DNA of 64,000 bases from Oleiharenicola lentus (GTDB taxonomy: Bacteria > Verrucomicrobiota > Verrucomicrobiia > Opitutales > Opitutaceae), in assembly GCF_004118375.1 (NCBI RefSeq), contig NZ_SDHX01000001.1, positions 2,545,693 to 2,609,692 on the forward strand, written 5' to 3'. Positions 22,550 to 22,967 of this stretch are shown here, in pieces. The notes beneath the pieces were generated by a model. That model was not told the DNA's origin. It saw only the letters and a list, made by a program, of their open reading frames with translations, and searched no databases. The position numbers and the translations under genes are program-made. How positions within the stretch are numbered: the stretch's first letter is position 1; each line of letters starts with the position of its first letter.

Positions 22550-22637
22550 TGGTGCCAGGGGCGAGGATTGAACTCGCGACCAACCCCGACAGGAGTCGGG
22601 GCTTGCCCCGCACTCTGGTCGGGGCTGCTCTAAGCTC
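22550..22637 (-). pseudogene. tRNA-Met 3' fragment with palindromes replacing the anticodon arm
   Basis: Positions 22550-22583 are an exact 34-base duplicate of the 3' end of the intact tRNA-Met (22893-22926), including T-arm, acceptor strand, discriminator and CCA. Upstream on the minus strand, where the anticodon arm should be, are two palindromic units (22584-22601 and 22606-22624), and before them the D-arm text tagagcag (22637-22630 region). The TAG inside that text is also the stop codon of the GIY-YIG gene. The 5' acceptor half is missing, so it cannot make a functional tRNA. Confidence 0.8.
22584..22624. repeat. Two tandem ccccgac/gtcgggg palindromes
   Basis: Unit A: ccccgac (22584-22590), 4-base spacer, gtcgggg (22595-22601), perfect. 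Unit B: imperfect, ccccgca and gtcgggg within 22606-22624. They occupy exactly the place of the tRNA anticodon arm in the 3' fragment. The same element occurs twice at 23006-23054. Confidence 0.85.
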
Positions 22638-22887
22638 CGAGCCCCCCATGAAGGTAGGCGATGGCCTTGAGCGGGTTCTTCCATGCCTTAAGCATCCGCT
22701 CAACAGCGACTGCTTGCGTTCGGCTGGCAAACTCGCGGCTCGCGATTAGTTCGATTGTGCCACCCATTCGCTTTGTCGTGTGCGTGTGGCCAGCGCGGTG
22801 CTGAGCCAGACGGGCGCTCAAATCCGAGGTCTGGCCGATGTAGTGCCGGCCTGAAGCACCTCGGAGAACGTAAACAGTATAAACCAA
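22630..22887 (-). CDS. Small GIY-YIG family endonuclease
   Basis: Protein of 85 residues if TTG 22887 is the start, five bases after the CCA of tRNA-Met. A longer reading from ATG 22953 would begin inside the tRNA and translate its T-arm, so it is rejected as a start. The GIY-YIG fold is clear: VYTVYVLRG (GIY strand), RHYIGQTSDLSARLAQHRAG (YIG strand and catalytic Arg), and a conserved C-terminal part with AVAVERMLKAWKNPLKAIAY containing the metal-binding Glu. Stand-alone proteins of this size belong to the UPF0213/YhbQ-like group. The gene is bracketed by tRNA-Met sequence on both sides. Start codon choice is uncertain; no Shine-Dalgarno is visible. Confidence 0.85.
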   Translation of the reverse strand: MVYTVYVLRGASGRHYIGQTSDLSARLAQHRAGHTHTTKRMGGTIELIASREFASRTQAVAVERMLKAWKNPLKAIAYLHGGLGA

Positions 22888-22892
22888 GAAAT

Positions 22893-22967
22893 TGGTGCCA
22901 GGGGCGAGGATTGAACTCGCGACCAAAGGCTTATGAGTCCTCTGCTCTACCACTGAGCTACCCTGGC
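22893..22967 (-). tRNA. tRNA-Met (anticodon CAU)
   Basis: Minus strand: acceptor GCCAGGG/CCCTGGC, D-arm GCTCAGTGGTAGAGC, loop CTCATAA with anticodon CAT, T-arm GCGAGTTCAATCCTCGC, discriminator A and encoded CCA (22895-22893). The anticodon stem GAGGA/GCCTT has one A-G mismatch at the loop-closing pair and one G-U pair; other stems are perfect. CAU could in principle also be an Ile tRNA modified at C34, but tRNA-Met is more likely. It is the only intact copy among three tRNA-Met-derived stretches. Confidence 0.85.

Follow-up and report, generated by a model that had tools for sequence, protein, structure and literature searches.

A small gene directly behind the tRNA-Met gene of Oleiharenicola lentus appears to belong to a family of minimal mobile elements of tRNA and tmRNA 3' ends, driven by a GIY-YIG nuclease. 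We give this reading, in which cleavage and movement are inferred from genomic sequence, a probability of roughly 0.63. In the best reading of its make-up, such an element would consist of one small GIY-YIG gene, a palindrome, and a copy of the 3' part of the target tRNA. Comparison shows the same layout at tRNA-His, tRNA-Asn and initiator tRNA-Met in other genomes, tRNA or tmRNA genes directly followed by relatives of the gene in several phyla, and, in one genome, as many as ten tRNA genes with related gene-less palindromes at their CCA. Such comparisons likewise support insertion at tRNA 3' ends, loss, decay and tandem growth.

The tRNA-Met unit and its empty sites

The window, by which we mean the whole 64,000-nt stretch of O. 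lentus DNA that was analysed, carries this locus on its minus strand. The original prediction had described an intact tRNA-Met at 22893-22967, a 258-base GIY-YIG gene starting five bases past the tRNA's CCA, a TAG stop within D-arm-like text, and an exact 34-base duplicate of the tRNA 3' end at 22550-22583, and each of these was borne out. ARAGORN calls a tRNA-Met(cat) at that place (Rfam RF00005, 67.9 bits), of the elongator type by eye; throughout, tRNA calls are those of ARAGORN, and tRNA fragments and tRNA-Met types were judged by eye. The 258-nt open reading frame runs from a TTG at 22887 to the TAG at 22630 and encodes 85 amino acids, though its true start codon is unsure because the frame is also open into the tRNA. 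The stop falls in TAGAGCAG, the 3' side of a D arm, and the duplicate, identified by repeat search and alignment, extends from the T arm to CCA.

Read along the minus strand, the locus begins with a block common to empty-site relatives (23120-23074), followed by a 5' fragment of tRNA-Met (23069-22998), 30 nt, the intact tRNA-Met (22967-22893), five bases, the ORF (22887-22630), a D-arm remnant with hairpins (22632-22584), the 3' copy (22583-22550), a terminator-like repeat (22545-22521), and a gene for an NTP transferase (21552-22478, minus strand; PF12804). The unit itself (22550-22892, 343 bp) comprises the five bases, the ORF, the hairpins and the tRNA 3' copy. The corresponding direct repeat of the window spans 38 nt at 97% identity, 34 nt of it exact, with a spacing of 343, and the alignment of the tRNA end with its downstream copy scores 34, against at most 11.5 in shuffles (n = 40). 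The hairpin-bearing tRNA pieces are spaced by 422.

Two features of the locus were absent from the original prediction. The first is the 5' fragment just upstream of the intact tRNA, which is recognizable from its sequence and from the direct repeats of the window. The second is a palindrome, CCCCGAC(N)GTCGGGG, present at 22584-22601, 23006-23023 and 23039-23054 (three in the window, none in 100 shuffles). Palindromes replace the anticodon arm in both broken tRNA copies: in the downstream copy TAGAGCAG is followed by a degenerate and then a perfect hairpin, the latter at 22584-22601, and the upstream copy has an additional palindrome in its D loop. As a genome-wide repeat the palindrome was ruled out, since it occurs four times in 4.71 Mb, three of them in the window. 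The terminator-like element, a 12-nt perfect inverted repeat, now stands behind the displaced 3' copy; by eye, a similar repeat lies directly 3' of the tRNA in the empty sites L105, L107, L108 and L109. The motif of the upstream block precedes the tRNA in L105 and L109 (by eye), and the block may represent the native tRNA promoter region.

Orthologous loci were taken from a tRNA-Met search of 21 genomes, the source genome included. The distance from the tRNA to the downstream gene is 415 bp in the window versus 70 bp in genome G013 and 71 bp in G007, an excess of 344-345 bp, and the repeat period is 343 bp. The NTP-transferase gene served as the marker of the locus, its counterparts in three empty-site genomes being 69-86% identical (G007, 69%; G013, 75%; G003, 86%). 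The unit is missing from G003 as well, but there the tRNA and the gene are 248 bp apart, with other intervening sequence. G011, which matches in the upstream gene only (41%), likewise has no unit. The empty sites of G007 and G013 and the 343-bp period support the earlier claim of an insertion of about 340 bp that leaves the tRNA intact; they also supply the empty-site allele whose absence would have pointed to a unit fixed by vertical descent. Compared with these two sites, the tRNA-Met locus of the window has gained about 343 bp by insertion. The 5' fragment can exist without the gene, because G013 (L107) keeps one, D-loop palindrome included, before an intact tRNA and lacks the GIY-YIG gene.

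A similar range of states is seen at tRNA-His. Among 14 loci of the genus, judged by eye, two have a unit, one a decayed remnant, three a short unit that has no gene and closes with a tRNA 3' copy, and eight none. Where G015 has a GIY-YIG gene behind tRNA-His, the next gene is the same as in the empty loci of G002, G006 and G010 (by eye). The closest relative of the window unit, L098 in G017, has decayed; its surroundings are rearranged, and there the NTP-transferase gene is found on the opposite flank of the tRNA. Stretches of 37 nt identical to the 5' half of tRNA-Met occur elsewhere in the genomes G010 (L123) and G004 (L124).

The sole Pfam family matched by the window ORF is GIY-YIG (PF01541, E 3.6e-12). 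In 15 aligned sequences Y16, G18, R26, H30, E63 and K67 are invariant and Y6 nearly so; we take these conserved residues to be the catalytic ones. A structure search with an AlphaFold2 model of the protein (pLDDT 88.6) returned, in 17 of its top 18 rows (Z 5.2-7.7), HIGLE, Slx1, EF2693, BH0048, I-TevI, UvrC and EndoII, which we take to be GIY-YIG proteins, some of them by title. The margin of this search is small, because row 19 is unrelated at Z 4.9; the Pfam match agrees with it. Domain match, conserved residues and predicted fold together place the protein in the GIY-YIG superfamily, whose members nearest in fold act on DNA. Carriage by a phage or plasmid was ruled out, as the window protein has no phage or plasmid match at E 1e-5; a plasmid match was also absent for one alphaproteobacterial relative.

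Small GIY-YIG genes behind tRNA and tmRNA genes

Besides UvrC, the source genome encodes six small GIY-YIG genes, of which one is divided between two matches. An intact tRNA precedes three of them (Met, Gln and Ala) and a tRNA-Ser 3' end a fourth (by eye), and two of these four tRNA-linked genes contain internal stop codons, a sign of decay. In a set of 29 genomes, made up of the source and 28 relatives, a tRNA or tmRNA lies on the same strand within 600 nt upstream of 46 of 90 small GIY-YIG matches, counting as unlinked four rows that have less than 300 nt of upstream contig (L066, L085, L088 and L091). None of the six UvrC genes checked as controls is tRNA-linked. On a protein tree of 86 genes, 46 of them linked, the linkage label changes 11 times, versus 28.8 for shuffled labels, and none of 500 shuffles came as low; the tree has few columns and many open forks, and it omits L095, L096 and L097 (other GIY-YIG types or a UvrC piece) as well as L008 (under 55 aa), which is part of a split gene whose second half never formed a row. 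Isotype changes 19 times among the 46 linked rows. By eye, the isotype within a clade is often constant (Leu, Ala, Gln), and old vertical descent may therefore account for much of the distribution.

Two clades of the tree are wholly unlinked, one of 17 UPF0213-like rows and one of 13 others, which rules out tRNA linkage as a property of all GIY-YIG genes. In five genomes a tRNA-Gln gene lies on the opposite strand 117-119 nt upstream of the UPF0213-like gene (L047, L049, L052, L057 and L060), an arrangement that looks like shared ancestry. A second association of a GIY-YIG gene with a repeat was seen in a tRNA-unlinked clade: at C1:2138972-2139189 of the source genome (L006, L008), inverted GGATCCTTCGCG-type repeats flank a frameshifted GIY-YIG gene (by eye), and several relatives of this gene end in DSSLRSE, apparently read from the repeat.

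Relatives in GTDB species genomes extend the linkage over a wider range. Among the best 80 of 562, 63 are preceded within 600 nt by a tRNA or tmRNA on the same strand, a figure that describes that clade and not all GIY-YIG genes, because eight of the nine query proteins were themselves tRNA-linked. According to the record titles, the 80 span Verrucomicrobiota, Alphaproteobacteria, Deltaproteobacteria, Acidobacteria and others. Bare tRNA or tmRNA 3' ends can be made out by eye in at least five of the other 17 (L207, L214, L218, L237 and L244); the only Rfam finds for the 17 are a tmRNA 759 nt upstream of one and a tRNA 1.2 kb upstream of another. Many of the relatives are known from draft assemblies, in which several contigs break off at these loci. 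Homologues in arbitrary contexts would have told against the original prediction: the related clades do not show them, as the tree and the 63 linked relatives indicate, although the two other clades are unlinked. Behind the tRNA-like 3' end of six tmRNA genes (L089, L206, L216, L224, L243 and L351) there is a GIY-YIG gene, a CCA-abutting palindrome, or both.

The layout of the window unit, with a copy of the tRNA 3' end behind the GIY-YIG gene, was found in 18 units from 16 genomes of the order, including the source genome. Their target tRNAs are six Asn, two His, one elongator-type Met, seven initiator-type Met and two Ser (Met types by eye). The search required that a copy stop no more than 2 nt from the tRNA end; when alignments were made with no prescribed end, all 11 that scored above 16 finished at the tRNA 3' end. 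All 16 non-Ser units have a palindrome that breaks up the tRNA copy at the anticodon arm or beside it; 14 of these palindromes were found by script (stem of at least 6) and two, in L291 and L321, by eye owing to loop limits. In 12 of the 14 Met and Asn units this palindrome has the form TCCCG...CGGGA with a variable yet self-complementary middle, the exceptions being the window (CCCCG) and L300 (TCCGG). It is the recurring position that carries the argument, because single palindromes in this G+C-rich DNA are mostly not significant, 0 to 78 of 200 shuffles equalling them.

Some loci hold more than one unit. G089 has two and a truncated third in tandem, G088 has two, and in G040 a gene-less unit precedes the one with the gene; partial second copies are found at L027 (G021), L075 (G001), L291 and L300. 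Broken, hairpin-bearing tRNA pieces upstream of the intact tRNA recur in G015 (His) and G059 (Asn). The original prediction, that homologues would sit behind tRNAs with a duplicated 3' end, stands for the 18 units and fails as a general rule: a tRNA 3' duplication of at least 13 nt, one mismatch allowed, is present in only 14 of 109 tRNA-linked relatives (controls: none upstream, one on the reverse strand). The source genome itself also has gene-less units of about 130-180 nt that end in a tRNA 3' copy from the T loop, at tRNA-Ser gct (L276) and tRNA-His (L254/L143), the latter partly tandem-repeated. A right-end motif of the His and Gln units has four matches in 19 genomes, all at tRNA loci already in the set.

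Palindromic leaders and gene-less copies

A second layout was found at loci with a long gap, of 72 nt or more, between CCA and ORF (n = 96). In most of them the gap starts at the CCA with, for example, NCCTTCGC or TCCTGCTTCGC, continues with its inverse repeat and a second hairpin, and leads into the ORF. The exact reverse complement of the 8 nt after the CCA recurs before the ORF in 68 of the 96 loci, with 19 different 8-mers, versus a mean of 16.9 and a maximum of 30 when partners were shuffled (1000 trials). The reverse complement of CCANNN occurs within 75 nt in 37 of the 96 (partner shuffles: mean 6.8, maximum 14), and on this evidence the tRNA's own CCA can form the start of a leader-type palindrome. 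RNAalifold, applied to 17 leaders, gave a consensus with 18 pairs, four of them with two-sided changes, and a covariation term of only -0.27. That the leader is a known RNA family was ruled out by the absence of any Rfam match at the gathering score in 20 loci. Most leader hairpins are not followed by a T run (by eye). The two layouts, the gene-proximal one with the tRNA copy and the leader type, are joined by their position at tRNAs and by GIY-YIG homology only.

We searched 19 genomes with a covariance model of the leader. Among the 69 matches examined, chosen mostly among those of about 63 nt, 51 abut a called tRNA or tmRNA (seven of them training sequences, and with a model whose letters include the CCA) and six more lie within 600 nt of one. 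For 55 of the 69 there is no PF01541 match within 800 nt downstream, and many are about 63 bp long. Because the covariance model contains the CCA, we made a second search with a 28-base pattern of the palindrome only. This pattern was drawn from gene-less copies among the covariance-model matches, and is free of tRNA letters but not of that sample; it occurs at 40 places in 11 of 21 genomes, against none for the reversed pattern. Of the 30 places examined, 22 start one base past the CCA of a called tRNA, two stand in tandem behind such a copy, and six lack a called tRNA and have readable tRNA-like 3' text before them. Stretch L368 was left out of these counts, as L357 already spans that place.

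Gene-less copies lie behind ten different tRNA genes in G007, and about ten of the 43 tRNAs of the source genome carry a leader, a remnant or a unit (by eye). Near-identity of such copies within a genome holds for one pair only: the best pair across isotypes, Cys and Val in G012, is 95% identical, and the best pairs of six other genomes reach 48-81%. A Lacunisphaera record (L238) and G007 have identical sequence both in the tRNA-Asp leader and past the ORF.

Proposed mechanism, alternatives and known systems

We propose that the nuclease introduces a nick or a cut into the tRNA gene, the palindrome, or both, the palindrome perhaps acting as a single-stranded hairpin. Homology to the tRNA 3' end, present on either side of the gene, would then let recombination copy the unit into an empty tRNA gene or, as an alternative outcome, amplify it in tandem; the two tRNA 3'-homologous stretches around a gene of the window type would be enough for either. 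The intact tRNA would keep the host alive, and the palindrome may mark or inactivate the displaced tRNA copy.

GIY-YIG nucleases drive homing of introns and some mobile elements, and the rival that survives best is a free-standing homing endonuclease like SegB. Such an enzyme would cut an empty tRNA allele in incoming DNA and be copied into it by double-strand-break repair, at orthologous tRNA loci only, leaving the palindromes incidental. We regard this as possible, if rather doubtful. It fits an intron-less GIY-YIG gene beside its presumed target, with filled and empty alleles, and Rfam found no intron family, group I introns included, in the window or in 20 related loci. The tendency of clade to go with isotype, as the tree reads by eye, also suits it, with the 19 isotype changes among 46 rows, and a phage precedent is described in SegB, a GIY-YIG homing endonuclease often found beside tRNAs (PMC13096335). 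Allelic homing would not, however, be expected to place gene-less palindromes behind many different tRNA genes of one genome, as in G007, and the tRNA 3' duplication and tandem units would need more than allelic conversion.

An element of use to the host at the RNA level seems unlikely to us. On that account the CCA-abutting hairpin would be a tRNA trailer or terminator, and the GIY-YIG protein would process or regulate tRNA or tmRNA transcripts. The same-strand location directly past the CCA, the covarying paired segments and an ORF that is often open into the tRNA agree with this, but the presence of the unit is patchy, with pseudogenes and empty sites within the genus, most of the hairpins have no T run after them (by eye), and the proteins nearest in fold act on DNA. 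The units might also be what is left of islands or phages that an integrase had attached at tRNA 3' ends, with the GIY-YIG gene as cargo. This would account for the duplicated tRNA 3' end, a classic integrase signature, but is very improbable given an insertion of 343 bp with one ORF, its 344-345 bp size difference from the empty sites, no integrase in the unit or the seven flanking ORFs scanned, the same kind of gene recurring at that place in many genomes, and a window protein without phage or plasmid match at E 1e-5.

We therefore keep to the reading of a nuclease-driven element of tRNA and tmRNA 3' ends. A broader claim, which we put forward tentatively and at somewhat short of even odds, is that these are a new class of bacterial mobile elements for such ends, possibly among the smallest autonomous ones. 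In it, one GIY-YIG nuclease of about 85 aa would act on a palindrome, which either takes in the tRNA's CCA or stands in for the anticodon arm in the carried copy, and would mobilise itself and gene-less derivatives of about 63 bp between isotypes, at least in Verrucomicrobiota and Alphaproteobacteria. We found no description of such elements in the open-access literature searched. No landing sites of bacterial islands and phages are better known than the 3' ends of tRNA genes, and recombinases are the usual explanation; if the proposal is true, a one-gene, 343-bp unit and its gene-less relatives would be a second, much smaller way to colonise tRNA genes, and many small "GIY-YIG family" genes of unknown function would gain a role.

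Several known systems share parts of this picture. Islands with tyrosine recombinases use the tRNA 3' end and leave it duplicated. The units resemble such tRNA-targeted integrative elements in both respects, and differ from them in that no recombinase was found in the unit or seven flanking ORFs, and in measuring 343 bp in all. Stand-alone GIY-YIG proteins of the UPF0213-like kind have the same fold and size as the window protein, whereas in their clade none of 17 rows has a same-strand tRNA. REP elements are short palindromes scattered over a genome, some linked to a tyrosine transposase gene and others not. The units share with them the dispersed short palindromes and the optional enzyme gene, but here the enzyme is GIY-YIG and not a Y1 transposase (the Pfam search of the ORF gives GIY-YIG only, and no HUH transposase), and the palindromes lie at tRNA CCA ends.

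The Ssn proteins of Neisseria are reportedly site-specific single-strand GIY-YIG nucleases paired with palindromic NTS repeats. The likeness to that system is that a small GIY-YIG protein standing on its own is accompanied by short palindromic repeats in the genome, and the TCCCG...CGGGA palindromes of the units presumably resemble the NTS repeat; the difference is that the repeats of the units are tied to tRNA 3' ends. The leader palindromes are dispersed but mostly at tRNA ends, and the window's own palindrome is not dispersed. To our knowledge, neither Ssn nor SegB has a layout of palindrome plus gene at a tRNA end.

Among described systems, SegB of T-even phages comes nearest. This free-standing GIY-YIG homing endonuclease is believed to cleave DNA that contains tRNAs and to set off recombination and tandem amplification (PMC13096335). 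Like SegB and other free-standing GIY-YIG genes of T-even phages, the genes studied here are small, lie outside any intron and adjoin tRNA genes. Unlike SegB, the units occupy bacterial chromosomes, at a fixed same-strand place behind the CCA, and they have a palindromic leader and gene-less copies and, in one type, a duplicated tRNA 3' end.
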